Positions 3,610-11,372 of a stretch of 21,793 nucleotides of DNA are shown piece by piece (position 1 is the stretch's first letter; every line of letters begins with the position of its first letter). Below the pieces are notes generated by a model. That model saw nothing but the letters and a program-made list of their open reading frames with translations. It was not told the origin of the DNA and did no database searches. Source of the stretch: a virus; the IMG/VR virus record IMGVR_UViG_3300043446_004737, positions 1 through 21,793 of that record, one strand, 5' to 3'. A program made the position numbers and the translations under genes.

Positions 3610-3640
3610 CTGTAACAGTAGCACCGGGCGCAAGCTTGCG
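3610..3640. promoter_or_regulatory. Operator-like palindromes in divergent intergenic region
   Basis: Two palindromes lie between the leftward operon and the rightward acidic gene: CTGTAACAG (3610-3618, CTGT-N-ACAG) and CGCAAGCTTGCG (3629-3640, perfect 12-mer). The 11-mer CTGTAACAGTA recurs exactly at 5936-5946. The second palindrome overlaps the likely -35 of the rightward gene. Confidence 0.45.
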
Positions 3641-3664
3641 GAATCGCCACCTATGGCATACAGT
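3636..3664 (+). promoter_or_regulatory. Candidate sigma70 promoter for the first acidic gene
   Basis: TTGCGG (3636-3641), a 17-bp spacer and TACAGT (3659-3664) would start transcription near 3671. This is downstream of the ATGs at 3653 and 3662, so it favours the ATG at 3692 as the start. Both hexamers are imperfect. Confidence 0.35.
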
Positions 3665-3691: not shown

Positions 3692-4423
3692 ATGCAACCG
3701 ACCTACACCCCCGAACACCTGGAGCGTTGGAGCCCGGCGGATCCCGCCACCGGCGGAACCAGCAACTACTCCGGTGCCGACCTATCAGCCTTCTGGCTGG
3801 CGCCCATCAGCACCAACCGCGATACCGCCGACAGCGTTACGCTCTCGAACTGGCGCGTCATCAGCGCCGAACTTGAGAAGCTGGCGCAGCACGAGGAGAG
3901 CGGCGCCCATAGCTTCGGGCACTGGGCTTGCGGCTGGTATGAGCTCTGGCTGATTCACGAGAGCGACACCGCAGCCCTGGAGTGTGCCGACCGCTGGGCC
4001 GCGTCGCTTGCCGATTATCCGGTGGCTGATGAATCCGACCTATGCGAACTGGAATCCGAGGAGGAGGGAGAAGCCTGGGAGCGTTGGGCCATGGCTGAAT
4101 GGCGCGACCTATTAACTAAGGCCCTGGAGCCCTACGCGCCAGACGATGCGCCGATTGACTGGGAAGCTGACGTGATCGACGCGCTCTCGGATGATCAGCT
4201 GGGAGAAGCCTGGCACGGCATCGCCAACCGGCTCAGCTGGTGCTGCATCCATGAGAGCGACGGCCCCACGTTCAACTTCAGGGAAGCAGGCGAACACCTA
4301 ACGGTTGAATGGCTGGCGCAGCTGACGGGCCTACCCTTGCTGCCGCCGGATCAGGAGTGGCGCCGCGAACCTTATCCGTGGCCGGACGGTTCCCGTGATC
4401 CGTTGGCGCCGGCCCTGGCTTGA
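3692..4423 (+). CDS. Highly acidic phage protein of unknown function (243 aa)
   Basis: By count the protein has about 48 Asp/Glu against 13 Arg/Lys, and it is rich in tryptophan, so it is a strong polyanion. The segment FGHWACGWYELWLIHESD and a following SLADYPVADESDLCELESEE match a hypothetical-protein pattern that recurs in actinophages and cyanophages (GHWACGW followed by LADYPVLDE). No enzymatic motif is seen. It stands directly before the ArdA-like gene, also very acidic, so DNA mimicry against host defences is a reasonable guess and no more. The start is uncertain: ATGs at 3653, 3662 and 3692 all lack a Shine-Dalgarno sequence, and the candidate promoter favours 3692. Confidence 0.65.
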   Translation: MQPTYTPEHLERWSPADPATGGTSNYSGADLSAFWLAPISTNRDTADSVTLSNWRVISAELEKLAQHEESGAHSFGHWACGWYELWLIHESDTAALECADRWAASLADYPVADESDLCELESEEEGEAWERWAMAEWRDLLTKALEPYAPDDAPIDWEADVIDALSDDQLGEAWHGIANRLSWCCIHESDGPTFNFREAGEHLTVEWLAQLTGLPLLPPDQEWRREPYPWPDGSRDPLAPALA

Positions 4424-4449
4424 CGCCGGGCCGCTAGCGGTTCTACCAT
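4420..4449 (+). promoter_or_regulatory. Candidate sigma70 promoter with palindrome in spacer
   Basis: TTGACG (4420-4425), an 18-bp spacer and TACCAT (4444-4449) precede the ArdA-like gene by 33 bp. The spacer contains the perfect palindrome CCGCTAGCGG (4431-4440), a possible repressor site. Confidence 0.45.
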
Positions 4450-4482
4450 TGCACACGAGACCCCAACCCATAGGCTCACCCC

Positions 4483-5139
4483 ATGCGTTACAACTCCGAA
4501 GCCCTGGCCCACTTCCCGTGGATCGCCAGTTGTGACACCCTGCGGCCGGAGGATCTCCTGCCGAAGTTCTGGTCAGTTGCCGAAGTTCTGGCCCTGGCGG
4601 CAAACAAGCCGGAAGCCTTAAGCCCTGCCACCCTGGCCAGTTTGGCAAAACTGGTTGGGGAGGATTCCAGCGAAGCCGACTGGAACGACGCCGAAGCCTG
4701 CCACACCCTGGAGGAACTGACCGAAACCCTGCAGGAGTTGGCCCCCGTTGGTTTCAACTTCGGAAGCCAGGACGGCGACGGAGCTTGTTTCGGCTTCTGG
4801 CTTGACGACAGCTGGGCCGAAGCTCTGGAGCACTTCGGTTTCGGTAATGACAGCCCCGGCGGCTGGGCGGAGTTGATCGCGGAGCTTGACGCTGACGGGA
4901 TCGACCCAGATACGGTGGAGGATTCTTACTGCGGCCGCGCTGAGGGCTGGTCAGAGGAACGGGCCGGAGCAGACTACGCTCAGCAGCTGGCGGAAGACCT
5001 GGGCGTCAAGCTTGACCAGATGGAGTGGCCGCTAACTTGCGTGGACTGGGAAGCGGCCTGGCGTGAGCTGGTGATGGGCGACGGTTACCGGCTGCACAGT
5101 ATCGGCGGCGGTGATTGGCTGGTGTTTCGTGCAGTGTGA
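4483..5139 (+). CDS. ArdA-like antirestriction protein with N-terminal phage domain
   Basis: This 218-residue acidic protein (about 44 Asp/Glu, 11 Arg/Lys) appears to have two parts. Residues ~18-107 (CDTLRPEDLLPKFW, then FNFGSQDGDGACFGFWL) match a domain found in phage hypothetical proteins. Residues ~145-218 resemble the C-terminal part of ArdA: VEDSYCG, then YAQQLAEDLG, then WPLTCVDWEAAWRELVMGDG and a final DWLVFRAV, following the ArdA order Y-x-G, helix, (Y/V)DxxxxxREL. ArdA proteins mimic B-form DNA and inhibit type I restriction-modification enzymes. The N-terminal ArdA repeats are not clear, so this may be a divergent or partial mimic. There is no Shine-Dalgarno sequence before the ATG. 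A terminator follows at 5180. Confidence 0.55.
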   Translation: MRYNSEALAHFPWIASCDTLRPEDLLPKFWSVAEVLALAANKPEALSPATLASLAKLVGEDSSEADWNDAEACHTLEELTETLQELAPVGFNFGSQDGDGACFGFWLDDSWAEALEHFGFGNDSPGGWAELIAELDADGIDPDTVEDSYCGRAEGWSEERAGADYAQQLAEDLGVKLDQMEWPLTCVDWEAAWRELVMGDGYRLHSIGGGDWLVFRAV

Positions 5140-5179
5140 CCAGCACCCCCACCGATTAACGGCCCGCGGTCGTCGCTTC

Positions 5180-5207
5180 GCTCCTCCCGCAGTGGGGGAG
5201 CTTTTTT
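5180..5207 (+). terminator. Rho-independent terminator after the ArdA-like gene
   Basis: GCTCCTCC (5180-5187) pairs with GGGGGAGC (5194-5201), with one G-U pair and a short loop, followed by TTTTTT (5202-5207). It closes the acidic-gene unit before the leader ORF and the small terminase candidate. Confidence 0.7.
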
Positions 5208-5226
5208 GTGGGCGGTGGAGGTTAGC

Positions 5227-5247
5227 ATGAGCGCAGATCGTTTGTGA
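5227..5247 (+). CDS. Six-codon leader ORF (MSADRL)
   Basis: GGAGG (5217-5221) lies 5 nt before ATG 5227, which reads MSADRL and stops at TGA 5245-5247. The stop shares its A with the ATG (5247) of the next gene (TGATG). That larger gene has no Shine-Dalgarno sequence of its own at a usable distance, so ribosomes may load on the leader and re-initiate. The product itself probably has no function. Confidence 0.4.
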   Translation: MSADRL

Positions 5248-5684
5248 TGCAAACCGTGGAGGATTCCACCGGCCAAGATGTAACCAAACCCTCTAGGCCG
5301 TTCGGGAAGCGCAACCCTGACGCGGTGATCGAGGAGCGGCGGAAGCGGCTTTATAAGCGGCAGCTCAGCGGTTTGACTGTTCGCCAGCTTGTTCTAGAGC
5401 ACGCGGATCGTGAGTCTATAGCTGAAGCTACGGCCTGGAGAGACTGGGAAGCCGTAAAAAGCTGGAATGAAGAGGATTGGCAGCGTGACAGGGAGTCGAT
5501 AGTGTCACGATTGCAGGGGATGCGTCTCCGGGCGATCGACGCCGCGATCCGCAAAGGCCAGATCGGCAGCGCTCAGCTGCTGATGCGCGACCTTGGCGCG
5601 GTGGTGGGCGAGGTTGCACCGGAAGCCCAGGCCGCCGCGGCCCCCGTGCTTCGGGTTGAGATCGACGACAAACGGGCCGGCTAG
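5247..5684 (+). CDS. HTH protein, candidate terminase small subunit
   Basis: This 145-residue protein begins with a basic segment, then an HTH-like stretch (LSGLTVRQLVLEHADRES, ~33-50), a charged helix (DWEAVKSWNEEDWQRDRESI), and a C-terminal helical segment (MRLRAIDAAIRKGQIGSAQL, then LMRDLGAVVGE) of the type seen at the end of phage small terminase subunits. Those proteins bind the packaging site and deliver DNA to the large subunit. Here the large subunit is 1.65 kb downstream with four genes between, so a different DNA-binding role is possible. GTG 5244 is an alternative start; ATG 5247 fits the TGATG coupling with the leader ORF. The GCCATTCAT array begins 2 bp after its stop. Confidence 0.5.
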   Translation: MQTVEDSTGQDVTKPSRPFGKRNPDAVIEERRKRLYKRQLSGLTVRQLVLEHADRESIAEATAWRDWEAVKSWNEEDWQRDRESIVSRLQGMRLRAIDAAIRKGQIGSAQLLMRDLGAVVGEVAPEAQAAAAPVLRVEIDDKRAG

Positions 5685-5686
5685 TT

Positions 5687-5787
5687 GCCATTCATGCCTG
5701 GAGCGCCATTCATGGATTGCCATTCATCGCGTGAATGCCATTCATGGATTGCCATTCATTGCCGCGGCCATTCATAGGCCATTCATG
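5687..5787 (+). repeat. GCCATTCAT repeat cluster B (seven copies)
   Basis: GCCATTCAT begins at 5687, 5705, 5719, 5737, 5751, 5767 and 5778, all in the same orientation, with spacings of 18, 14, 18, 14, 16 and 11 bp. Copies followed by GG form the palindrome CCAT-TC-ATGG. The fourth copy is also preceded by GAATG, making GAATG-C-CATTC. Spacing is too irregular and units too short for a CRISPR array; it looks more like iterons or binding sites. Confidence 0.9.
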
Positions 5788-5803
5788 CCTGACGCACGAG
5801 GCT

Positions 5804-5892
5804 AGTACAGCTGCACTAGGACACAGGTGTACTATAGGTCTAATGTACTACAGTTCTGATGTACTACTCTCGCAGGCTAGTACGGGTGCACT
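5804..5892. promoter_or_regulatory. Cluster of four LexA-box-like sites
   Basis: Against the cyanobacterial LexA consensus RGTACNNNDGTWCB (recalled from literature), AGTACAGCTGCACT (5804-5817), TGTACTACAGTTCT (5844-5857) and AGTACGGGTGCACT (5879-5892) each have one mismatch, and TGTACTATAGGTCT (5828-5841) has two. The first and last are flanked by CTAG, giving larger imperfect palindromes. The rest of this 317-bp gene-free stretch (5685-6001) holds repeat cluster B before it and the CTGTAACAGTA site at 5936 after it. I see no gene in it. The binding protein could be host LexA or a phage repressor. Confidence 0.45.
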
Positions 5893-5935
5893 AGCCTCCG
5901 GATCCTAGCCTGCCGCAGCCATAAGCTATTTTAAT

Positions 5936-5946
5936 CTGTAACAGTA
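5936..5946. promoter_or_regulatory. CTGTAACAGTA operator-like site
   Basis: This is an exact 11-bp match to 3610-3620, and the reverse complement of its last 9 bp recurs at 6502-6510. All three sites are intergenic and lie upstream of early-region genes. It contains the palindrome CTGT-N-ACAG. Confidence 0.4.
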
Positions 5947-6001
5947 TTGCCAACGGTGCCGGATCCGTCCTAGGAAGGGCAGGCCCTGATAGCCACCACC
6001 C

Positions 6002-6457
6002 ATGGCAAGGAAGATTGAAACCGCAATGATTCAAGTTCTGCGGAATCTTGATGTTAATCGCTCCGGCGTTATCTTCTCCAGAGATAACACTACGATCGAA
6101 GTTGAGCATCACGGAACATACCTGACACTAGGGTATGAAATGATCGTGAACGTTAAACTACACGGTCACACAATCTGCCGGTATCATCGCTCCCGAGAAC
6201 TAGTTACATTCTCGGATTGTGGCTGGCGCACTGCTACAACCAAAAGTAGACTTAATGCACTTCTAAACTACTTTTCGGATTACATTAACGGCGGATGGTC
6301 CCGGTATGGAATTTATCAGGCAAAACATGTTTGGTATCTCCAGGAATCTAGTTTCCGATACATGGGGCCCGATCGCGAGTCTCATCCGTTTGTGCCCCTC
6401 AAGCCGGTTGAATGGCCTGGGGAACTGACCGTATCGGTCAGCCGCGGCTGCCCATAG
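6002..6457 (+). CDS. Conserved phage hypothetical protein (151 aa)
   Basis: The protein has a strand-rich middle (EVEHHGTYLTLGYEM, then VNVKLHGHTICRYHRSREL) followed by TFSDCGWRTATTKSRLNALL. The segment GWRT-x-TTKSRLN is a signature seen in many small phage proteins of unknown function, usually in early or accessory regions. No catalytic motif is recognised. The coding DNA is visibly richer in A and T than the neighbouring genes, which suggests recent acquisition. There is no Shine-Dalgarno sequence before ATG 6002. Near its 3' end CTGACCG-TAT-CGGTCAG (6425-6441) forms a perfect 7-bp hairpin within the coding region. Confidence 0.65.
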   Translation: MARKIETAMIQVLRNLDVNRSGVIFSRDNTTIEVEHHGTYLTLGYEMIVNVKLHGHTICRYHRSRELVTFSDCGWRTATTKSRLNALLNYFSDYINGGWSRYGIYQAKHVWYLQESSFRYMGPDRESHPFVPLKPVEWPGELTVSVSRGCP

Positions 6458-6472
6458 GTTACAGAATGTTAC

Positions 6473-6494
6473 AGGGCCCTAGCCTCGGGCCCTT
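6473..6494 (+). terminator. GC-rich terminator-like hairpin
   Basis: AGGGCCC (6473-6479) pairs with GGGCCCT (6487-6493) around a 7-nt loop, but only a short TT follows. GTTACAG occurs twice just before it (6458-6464 and 6468-6474). It may be a weak terminator. Confidence 0.45.
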
Positions 6495-6501
6495 CCTGCC
6501 T

Positions 6502-8961: not shown

Positions 8962-10218
8962 ATGTCCTTATTCGTCCAGACCTCATCCTTCACTAACCCC
9001 TTTGTAACCAACACCCTCCCCGTTGGCACTGGAGATGCTTTTGGACGTCTACGCACATCTAGCCCTCTAACTCTCTTCGATTCCAGCCATCGCTACAAGG
9101 ACAACGGCCTCTGGGCTACTTCCACCGCCACTGGTGGAACAGCCACTTTCGACGCCAACGCCGGCCTCGTAAATCTCGCCGTAACCACCAGTTCCGGCTC
9201 CGAGGTCATCCGCGAAACCACCAAATGCTTCTCTTACCAGCCGGGTAAATCCTTGCTGGTGATGTCCACATTTACGATGAACGCCGCCAAAGCCGGCCTA
9301 CGCCAGCGCGTCGGCTACTTCGGCGCCGCCAACGGCATGTACCTGGAGCTAGACGGCGCCTCAGGCAGCGATCTCGTGTTCGTCGAACGCAGTTCCTCTA
9401 CCGGATCTCTCGTCGAAACCCGCGTCTCCCAAGCCAACTGGAACACCGACCCGCTAAACGGAACCGGCCCCTCCAACTTGACTTTGGACATCACAAAGGC
9501 CCAAATCCTTTGGATGGACATCGAGTGGCTTGGCCTTGGAACAGTCCGTATGGGCTTCATCATTAACGGCAAATTTATCCACTGCCACTCCTTCCACCAC
9601 GCCAACATCATTACTTCAACTTATATAACAACAGCCTCACTTCCCCTCCGCTACGAAATTACAAATACCACTGCTACAGCAAGTTCCAGCACGCTGAAAC
9701 AGGTATGCTCAACCGTACTTTCTGAAGGCGGTTACGAACTTCGCGGCCTCCAACAAGCCATAGGCACATCTATATCTTCTCCTTACTCCCTTACAACCGC
9801 TGGAACCTTTTACCCCGTAATTTCTCTCCGCCTCAAATCCACAGCACTCGACGCAATCGTCATCCTTACGGCTATTTCCCTGCTGGGAGTCAGTGCCAAC
9901 GCCAACTACAACTGGCGCGTCGTAGCCGCCGCCACAACCACCGGCGGCACTTGGACCAGCGCCGGAACCAACTCCAGCGTTGAATACAACCTAACTGGCA
10001 CCGCCACAACCGGCGGCCGCATCTTGGCCCAGGGCTATTTCAGCTCCACCAACCAAAGCACCACTGGCGTGGACATCCTCAAGGAAGCCCTCTTCAAATT
10101 CCAGCTGGAACGCGACGGTCTCGCCGCAACTCCTTACGAACTGAGCCTAGTTATTACAGCTAGCGTGGCGACGTCTAACGTTCATGCATCTATGGACTGG
10201 GAGGAAATCAGCCGCTAA
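8962..10218 (+). CDS. Putative virion structural protein (418 aa)
   Basis: Near the N-terminus, GDAFGRLRTSSPLTLFDSSH matches a motif found at the start of structural proteins of marine and cyanobacterial phages (AFGRLRVSxPxTLFDS). The rest is Ser/Thr/Gly-rich and strand-forming, with a long beta-rich C-terminal half (NYNWRVVAAATTTGG, STTGVDILKEALFKF), as in fibre or decoration proteins. A location on the virion surface is an inference. It begins 3 bp after the preceding stop. Its stop codon lies in the loop of a strong hairpin (10199-10232). Confidence 0.65.
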   Translation: MSLFVQTSSFTNPFVTNTLPVGTGDAFGRLRTSSPLTLFDSSHRYKDNGLWATSTATGGTATFDANAGLVNLAVTTSSGSEVIRETTKCFSYQPGKSLLVMSTFTMNAAKAGLRQRVGYFGAANGMYLELDGASGSDLVFVERSSSTGSLVETRVSQANWNTDPLNGTGPSNLTLDITKAQILWMDIEWLGLGTVRMGFIINGKFIHCHSFHHANIITSTYITTASLPLRYEITNTTATASSSTLKQVCSTVLSEGGYELRGLQQAIGTSISSPYSLTTAGTFYPVISLRLKSTALDAIVILTAISLLGVSANANYNWRVVAAATTTGGTWTSAGTNSSVEYNLTGTATTGGRILAQGYFSSTNQSTTGVDILKEALFKFQLERDGLAATPYELSLVITASVATSNVHASMDWEEISR

Positions 10219-10232
10219 CGGCATTTCCTCCC
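10199..10232. promoter_or_regulatory. Hairpin with the stop codon in its loop
   Basis: GGGAGGAAAT (10199-10208) pairs with ATTTCCTCCC (10223-10232) and GCCG (10211-10214) with CGGC (10219-10222). A CA bulge is the only flaw in 14 bp, and the 4-nt loop CTAA contains the stop codon of the 418-residue gene. There is no T-tract, so mRNA 3'-end protection or processing is as likely as termination. Confidence 0.6.
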
Positions 10233-10238
10233 CCCTGA

Positions 10239-10250
10239 TGCCAAAATACG
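10239..10250 (+). promoter_or_regulatory. TGCCAAAATA element 33 bp before a start codon
   Basis: TGCCAAAATACG starts 33 bp before ATG 10272; TGCCAAAATAGG (12045-12056) starts 32 bp before the portal GTG at 12077. The shared sequence and distance suggest a promoter or processing element. Confidence 0.3.
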
Positions 10251-10271
10251 CTAAGCGCCCCCAGGTAAAAC

Positions 10272-10454
10272 ATGGAAATCACCTCCGTAATGCTTGACGC
10301 GATCTTCGCCGTCAAGGGCAAGCGCAACCCCAAGCTCTGGGACCCTCGTTGCGCCGCTTACCTCGCCAAAACTGCCGCAGTGGCTGCAGCCCCCAAAAAC
10401 ACCAAAAAAGAAGTCGCTGCCGCTCTGGAACTCGTTGAAGAAATCATCAACTAA
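10272..10454 (+). CDS. Hypothetical small protein (60 aa)
   Basis: This short, mostly helical protein (EITSVMLDAIFAVKGKRNPK, then WDPRCAAYLAKTAAVAAAP and EVAAALELVEEIIN) has no recognised family. CAGGT lies about 6 nt before ATG 10272, giving modest ribosome-site support. It lies between the 418-residue structural protein and the tail-tube pair in the same direction. Confidence 0.5.
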   Translation: MEITSVMLDAIFAVKGKRNPKLWDPRCAAYLAKTAAVAAAPKNTKKEVAAALELVEEIIN

Positions 10455-10485
10455 ACTCAAAACATCCCCTACTGCATAACGACCC

Positions 10486-10899
10486 GTGGCTTTCTTTCGC
10501 GGCGAGGAGGGCTCCATCAGCTTCAAGGACAGCTCCGGCGTCGTGGCCGCGGTCTCGTCCACCCGCAGCTGGAGCTTCACCATCAACAAAGACACCCTGG
10601 ACGTAACCGACCAAGGTTCGACCAGCCGTGAGTTCATCGGCAGCCTCCTCTCTGGAAGCGGCAGCGCCGAAGTCATGTACACCGCTGGCACTGGCGAAAC
10701 CCTCAACTTCATCGACGACGTCCTGACCACCAAGGACCAAACCGACGCCCAATTCGAACTCTTCCTGGACACCACCGGCACCAAGAAAATCACCTTCACT
10801 GGCATCATCACCAGTGCTGACTACAGCGCAACCGTCGGCGAACTGGAAGTCATCACCGTCAACTTCATCAGTTCTGGCGCAATCACCGCCTCTATCTAA
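10486..10899 (+). CDS. Major tail tube protein, copy 1
   Basis: The 137-residue beta-rich protein has the usual tail-tube pattern: RSWSFTINKDTLDVTDQGST near the N-terminus, a central GSLLSGSGSAEVMYT strand pair, and a C-terminal KKITFTGIITSADYSATVGE followed by LEVITVNFISSG. Such subunits stack in hexameric rings to form the siphovirus tail tube. It is paralogous to the next gene, about two-thirds identical by eye along the full length. The start is GTG in the context CCCGTGGC, without a Shine-Dalgarno sequence; similar CCGTG starts recur at 12077, 13564, 15955 and 18403. A tail-tube gene before the portal is unusual. Confidence 0.75.
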   Translation: MAFFRGEEGSISFKDSSGVVAAVSSTRSWSFTINKDTLDVTDQGSTSREFIGSLLSGSGSAEVMYTAGTGETLNFIDDVLTTKDQTDAQFELFLDTTGTKKITFTGIITSADYSATVGELEVITVNFISSGAITASI

Positions 10900-10955: not shown

Positions 10956-11372
10956 ATGGCCTTTTTTCGCGGCGAAGAAGGTTCCGTCAAATTCGAAAAC
11001 GACGGCTCCAGCACCGTTACTCTTGCCTCCACCCGCAGCTGGTCCCTGACCATCAACAAGGACACGCTCGACACCACTGACCACGGCTCCACCAGCCGCG
11101 AGTTCGTCGGCGGCCTCATCTCCGGCTCCGGCACCGTCGAGCTGATGTACACGGCCTCCAGCGCCGACGAAACCGCCGCCTTCCTCCAAGACGTACTTAC
11201 CACCGAAGACAACGCCAACGCCGCCTTCGAACTCTTCCTGGACACCAGCGGCGGCAAAAAGATCAGCTTCACCGGCATCATCACCAGTGCCGATTTCAGT
11301 GCCACCGTCGGCGAACTGGAAGTCGTTACCTGCAACTTCATCACCTCTGGCGCTATTACTGCAGCCATCTGA
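10956..11372 (+). CDS. Major tail tube protein, copy 2
   Basis: The 138-residue paralog of the preceding protein shares MAFFRGEEGS, STRSWS(L)TINKDTLD, GSTSREF(V)G and TGIITSADFSATVGELEV. Differences cluster in the 11-25 loop and around 68-90 (SSADETAAFLQDVLTTEDNA), likely surface loops. Either both copies build the tube, or one is a minor or specialised ring at the tip or neck. ATG is used instead of the GTG of copy 1, and the start is preceded immediately by a hairpin. Its TGA overlaps the next ATG (TGATG). Confidence 0.75.
   Translation: MAFFRGEEGSVKFENDGSSTVTLASTRSWSLTINKDTLDTTDHGSTSREFVGGLISGSGTVELMYTASSADETAAFLQDVLTTEDNANAAFELFLDTSGGKKISFTGIITSADFSATVGELEVVTCNFITSGAITAAI

Follow-up and report, generated by a model that had tools for sequence, protein, structure and literature searches.

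An acidic phage gene pair, one member with an ArdA-like C-terminal domain, as a candidate counter-defense slot

Two adjacent genes for very acidic proteins, located between the recombination exonuclease and terminase genes of a tailed phage, may constitute a modular counter-defense slot. The second of these proteins (protein 2) ends in a segment homologous to domain 3 of the antirestriction protein ArdA, fused to a domain that stands alone in other phages. The first (protein 1) belongs to an uncharacterized family marked by the motif GHWACGW, and its long-form relatives lie next to ArdA genes in actinophages. The window, by which we mean the whole stretch of DNA analyzed (21,793 nucleotides), is a 21.8 kb fragment of a virus record and is related to IMG/VR tailed-phage contigs of ~40–45 kb; a DNA-level search for its direct phage relatives found none. 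The features of the locus are as follows.

3636–3664, plus strand: putative promoter of protein 1 (TTGCGG at 3636–3641, 17-nt spacer, TACAGT at 3659–3664; 27 nt to the ATG)
3692–4423, plus strand: protein 1 gene, GHWACGW family (phrog_3906/4313); open reading frame of 243 amino acids, acidic
3917–3937, plus strand: GHWACGW motif, protein 1 residues 76–82, located by sequence and degenerate-pattern scans
4420–4449, plus strand: putative promoter of protein 2 (TTGACG at 4420–4425, 18-nt spacer, TACCAT at 4444–4449; 33 nt to the ATG)
4483–5139, plus strand: protein 2 gene, ArdA-domain-3 fusion; open reading frame of 218 amino acids, acidic
4777–4800, plus strand: DGACFGFW core, protein 2 residues 99–106, which stands alone in other phages
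4954–5136, plus strand: ArdA C-terminal (domain 3)-like segment, protein 2 residues 158–218, by HHalign and PHROG
5180–5201, plus strand: intrinsic-terminator-like stem followed by TTTTTT, 3' of protein 2

The ArdA-like character of the protein 2 C-terminus, first noticed in a sequence-only reading of this DNA, was confirmed by profile comparison. An alignment of 52 protein 2 relatives matched a profile built from five phage proteins annotated as ArdA (those of Cellulophaga, Mycobacterium, Gordonia, and Rhodococcus phages) with an HHalign probability of 94 (E = 1.4e-7) over the C-terminal 61 columns (158–220). Two PHROG families labeled "anti-restriction" were also matched, phrog_2059 by 46 of the 52 relatives and phrog_36653 by 33 of 52, and tblastn aligned protein 2 with ArdA from Cellulophaga phage phi13:2 (36% over 79 amino acids, E = 3e-3). 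The Pfam ArdA model (PF07275) did not match protein 2 of the window at E up to 5, and matched two of the 52 relatives (best E 0.0011). These library matches are individually not strong, but they agree.

The predicted model of protein 2 is confident (pLDDT 89). ArdA 2W82 was the sole relevant entry, and the one of highest probability, among the PDB fold matches listed for it, at a level that was not significant (TM 0.29/0.37, E 0.72, probability 0.33). ArdA consists of three domains, of which domain 2 spans Orf18 residues 62–103 (PMC3969726), and by this layout the ArdA-like end of protein 2 corresponds to the dimer-forming domain 3. ArdA domain 1 (the YNxG...W segment) was not found in protein 2, the profile alignment covering the C-terminus alone; as neither this domain nor a Pfam match was detected, protein 2 does not qualify as a canonical ArdA. 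Phage lambda DNA is shielded from type I restriction by C-terminal domains of ArdA acting alone (sArdC; PMC12548430). On this precedent, the most likely function predicted for protein 2 is antirestriction. In one relative (L109), a frame change splits protein 2 (positions 9998–10658); a long gene of cluster c0 (4154–6500) is broken into pieces there as well, so that errors of assembly seem a better explanation than decay.

The N-terminal part of protein 2 has a different distribution. All 52 relatives match phrog_29605, and a DNA-pattern scan for DGA[CD]FGFW recovered 121 stretches, 56 of which fail a simple ArdA-tail pattern. In three or four of these failures the tail is a variant or the frame is broken; the others stop shortly after the motif or continue into other segments, often with VNDHGN. 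Among loci L296–L412, the motif ends small proteins or joins a VNDHGN..LY..WSIV segment, and it is widespread in phages. DGA[CD]FGFW therefore marks an uncharacterized domain family. Because this domain occurs without the ArdA tail in many phages, protein 2 is best described as a fusion of a stand-alone phage domain to ArdA domain 3, which is a new ArdA architecture.

Protein 1 had been assigned to an uncharacterized phage family with the GHWACGW motif, and motif scans of viral contigs and prokaryote genomes upheld this assignment. A degenerate-DNA scan of viral contigs yielded 102 stretches, most of them true family members. The same scan across the genomes of ~85,000 prokaryote species yielded 71 matches with a single true member (L275), and the family is thus essentially phage-only. 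Every one of 60 distinct members is acidic (median −0.119 per residue, pI 4.06–5.07). The 32 close relatives of protein 1 all match phrog_3906 (best E 1e-12), and among 23 diverse members 18 match phrog_4313 and 13 match phrog_3906. Protein 1 also aligns with the long-form actinophage members by HHalign (E = 1e-12). A Pfam search with the 32 close relatives gave nothing convincing, a PDB fold search gave nothing significant, and tblastn with protein 1 recovered no phage record. The model of protein 1 (pLDDT 78.7) matched uncharacterized phage proteins in a fold search of viral predicted structures, including those of Rhodococcus phage RGL3 and Mycobacterium phage Indlulamithi; relatives of these two phages were also recovered by sequence search. 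A literature search on the motif and the PHROG numbers found no paper. The idea that protein 1 is a divergent ArdA was rejected (HHalign probability 0.6), as was the idea that proteins 1 and 2 are paralogues (HHalign probability 0.5), and neither protein matches the PADLOC defense-system models at E up to 0.1. In five loci (L042, L053, L063, L068, and L043), protein 1 is short and its C-terminal part is exchanged for a RVRTLQQLGLCVFAARDDAAPW-type end, which is common to many members of the family. The C-terminal part of GHWACGW proteins is swappable.

In all 30 of the 30 actinophages compared, a long-form relative of protein 1 shares its strand with an annotated ArdA gene located 102–740 bp away (median 332). 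These 30 are the phages recovered by both searches, one for protein 1 relatives and one for ArdA, and their hosts are Mycobacterium, Gordonia, and Rhodococcus; Rhodococcus phages numbered 45 in each search. Because actinophages are related within each genus, independent linkage events are few (at least two, including that of the phage group to which the window belongs), and the actinophage linkages may go back to a single ancestral gene order that related phages have retained. For the GHWACGW family as a whole, linkage to ArdA was rejected. A Pfam-detectable ArdA was found in 0 of 46 contigs carrying the broader family, which limits the linkage to long-form relatives; the same Pfam search detected ArdA in five of eight named phages as a positive control. 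The 46 contigs include four from the window's group, all of which fail the Pfam model, as expected from its two matches among the 52 protein 2 relatives, and phrog_2059 detects protein 2 in three of these four. ArdA was not found for three more distant protein 1 relatives, plasmid relatives of the actinophage form of protein 1 were searched for and none were found, and recurrence of conserved neighbors around GHWACGW genes in general is weak.

Within the window's group, proteins 1 and 2 are mostly adjacent yet swapped independently. The context analysis used mechanical gene calling, and many of its loci are fragmentary. It placed protein 1 at most 2.5 kb from protein 2 in 24 of 39 loci and protein 2 near protein 1 in 21 of 32; one locus in this count has the reversed order, and L092, L103, and L105 show the reversed gene order. 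(E-values from searches inside individual loci are relative to the loci searched.) Protein 1 is missing in some relatives, and in others protein 2 is exchanged for a small gene. In L008, L012, L013, L024, L011, L005, L007, and L030 (cluster c23), a protein of 90–110 amino acids with the signature FHWTGTHV..CAVVKYxGPT..RGSRW occupies the position of protein 2, followed in some loci by an 82-amino acid ELTDTFGGEANYSWVRR protein. Both of these are uncharacterized.

The two genes also carry their own promoter-like sites, as had been proposed from the sequence alone. A site of the type TTGCNN-N16/17-TACAGT is located 24–28 nt before the ATG of protein 1 and matches at ≥8/12 positions in 15 of 35 relatives (3 of 175 shuffles). 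For protein 2, a TTGACG-N18-TACCAT-type site ~32 nt before the ATG matches at ≥8/12 positions in 39 of 55 relatives (7 of 275 shuffles). The scan reads the form and position of these sites, which are promoter-like and sigma70-like. The stop codon of protein 1 and the −35 box of protein 2 overlap. The protein 2 promoter is retained where the upstream gene differs (e.g., L037, L040, and L041). An alternative in-frame start of protein 1 exists at 3653, upstream of the −10 box; the start at 3692 is favored because the −10 box sits between the two. Dyad-like sequences occur in the spacers of both promoters (GCCACCTATGGC for protein 1, approximately window 3646–3657; CCGCTAGCGG for protein 2, approximately window 4434–4453), similar ones occur in several relatives, and these dyads may be operators. 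The terminator-like stem after protein 2 is covered by four overlapping predictions, as compared with 1.7 expected from shuffles.

The pair is preceded by the exonuclease gene and then a basic gene on the minus strand; after protein 2 come a small gene, labeled as terminase-small from its position alone, and the large terminase. The product of window positions 6002–6457 matches Pfam Kyano_Gp96 (Kyanoviridae Gp96; E = 1.2e-14) and phrog_554. The name of the Kyano_Gp96 family derives from cyanophages, and the match hints weakly at a cyanobacterial host; the terminase is nevertheless nearest to those of Vibrio phages (~45% identity), and no host is asserted for this reason. At 10486–10899 and 10956–11372, the window encodes two neighboring acidic proteins (137 and 138 amino acids), both of cluster c37 and a tandem duplication. 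This pair is in tandem in L024 too, and the proteins are possibly tail-tube-like.

The earlier suggestion of a counter-defense island gains support from the actinophage ArdA linkage of long-form protein 1 relatives and from the independent swapping of genes. We favor a reading in which the site between the exonuclease and terminase genes is a modular counter-defense slot, encoding a type I inhibitor (protein 2) and a second anti-defense factor (protein 1). Protein 2 would dimerize through its ArdA domain 3, and, acting as a DNA mimic, the dimer would fill the groove in which type I restriction-modification enzymes hold DNA; we infer its antirestriction activity, dimerization, target, and DNA-like shape. 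Protein 1, from its own promoter, would block another host defense or another type of restriction, perhaps also acting by charge mimicry, and any such role, like the time of expression, is a prediction. Taken as a whole, this reading is evenly poised between right and wrong. Its protein 2 part is rather probable, and its protein 1 part is tentative, falling a little below an even chance. Likewise, protein 2 is likely to be a DNA mimic, and for protein 1 this is only plausible. Several observations count against the slot reading: protein 2 fails the Pfam ArdA model, lacks domain 1, and has no significant whole-fold match to ArdA, and ArdA is not an obligatory companion of the broader GHWACGW family. 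In addition, known mimics are poorly conserved in sequence, whereas protein 1 has an invariant aromatic motif.

Protein 1 might instead be an unrelated accessory protein, involved in host takeover or in control of transcription or replication, that merely shares the slot with an ArdA-type antirestriction protein 2. We regard this as a sizeable possibility, although somewhat doubtful. It would account for the occurrence of the broader family without ArdA and for the exchange of proteins 1 and 2, which are not homologous, independently of one another; the invariant aromatic residues of protein 1 suggest a specific fold or ligand, and a relative in Mycobacterium phage Journey13 was deposited as an "HTH DNA binding protein." However, every member has a pI of about 4 to 5, which makes nucleic-acid binding unlikely, and linkage to ArdA in phages of three actinobacterial host genera as well as in the window's group also speaks against it. 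Quite unlikely, in our estimate, is that the inhibitors of this slot are aimed at other DNA-targeting defenses (CRISPR-Cas, BREX, Dnd, or type III/IV restriction), with the ArdA domain re-aimed. Protein 2 does have a different domain in place of ArdA domain 1, and neighbors of known anti-defense genes are often directed at other systems (PMC7648647), but the sole functional homology here is to type I antirestriction proteins.

The acidity of the pair goes beyond both chance and a proteome-wide tendency. The counts given in the sequence-only reading were exact, with 48 D+E versus 13 K+R among the 243 residues of protein 1 and 44 versus 11 among the 218 of protein 2, and the "many tryptophans" number 16 and 11, respectively. 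The pI is 4.16 for protein 1 and 4.05 for protein 2. Among 26 conserved gene clusters of ≥100 amino acids in the phage group, protein 2 ranks first and protein 1 second, both for tryptophan content and for net negative charge per residue (−0.147 and −0.107, respectively). The idea that the proteins of this phage are acidic in general was therefore rejected. With dN/dS of ~0.1 in both (0.013/0.139 for protein 1, 0.046/0.469 for protein 2), the proteins are real, constrained, and under purifying selection. That the acidity merely follows from lineage or composition and serves no function through charge, the ArdA segment being decayed or a re-used dimerization domain, is very improbable: the frameshift in L109 would fit decay, but the c0 gene broken in the same locus points to assembly errors, and the charge ranking, the acidity maintained in 60 divergent protein 1 relatives, the low dN/dS, and 31 invariant columns across the 52 protein 2 relatives all speak against it.

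A broader proposition is that GHWACGW proteins are a large undescribed class of acidic anti-defense proteins, whose long form partners ArdA-type proteins, and that phages make new antirestriction proteins by joining other acidic domains to ArdA domain 3; we consider this unlikely on balance. If protein 2 is active, the ArdA C-terminal domain would be a portable antirestriction module carried on unrelated N-terminal domains, and Pfam-based annotation would overlook such proteins. If protein 1 is an anti-defense protein, a family of dozens of divergent phage members would acquire a testable role. Its ArdA-linked relatives sit in well-studied Mycobacterium and Rhodococcus phages, in which gene deletion and plating are routine.

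Among known systems, Ocr of phage T7 resembles the pair as an acidic phage protein with, for the window proteins, a putative counter-restriction role. The window proteins are longer and multi-domain, and Ocr is absent from the PDB sequence matches of both and from the PDB fold matches listed. ArdA (PF07275; Tn916 Orf18, PDB 2W82) is closer to protein 2, which is likewise acidic and on a mobile element, and whose C-terminal 61 residues are homologous to domain 3. The strong acidity of protein 2 fits that of three phage ArdAs measured (−0.14 to −0.19 per residue). Unlike ArdA, protein 2 has neither a PF07275 match nor domain 1 (the YNxG segment); its N-terminal half is the DGACFGFW domain, and it is tryptophan-rich. 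The stand-alone ArdA C-terminal domain sArdC, which is active in antirestriction (PMC12548430), shares with protein 2 the use of this domain without domain 1. Protein 2 differs in its length (218 amino acids), its additional N-terminal phage domain, and its location in a phage rather than a bacterial chromosome. For protein 1, the named members of phrog_3906 and phrog_4313 (Mycobacterium Benedict gp85, Gordonia DatBoi gp165, and Rhodococcus Jester gp65) are uncharacterized. Protein 1 has the GHWACGW motif and a conserved QEWRREPYPWPDGS tail, whereas the actinophage forms compared lack the exact motif. The two nonetheless share SN.R, Y-P, and D/E-rich segments, a long helix, and acidity, as well as proximity to ArdA (for the majority of the actinophages recovered) and the same predicted fold family, with the RGL3 and Indlulamithi proteins among the top structural matches.
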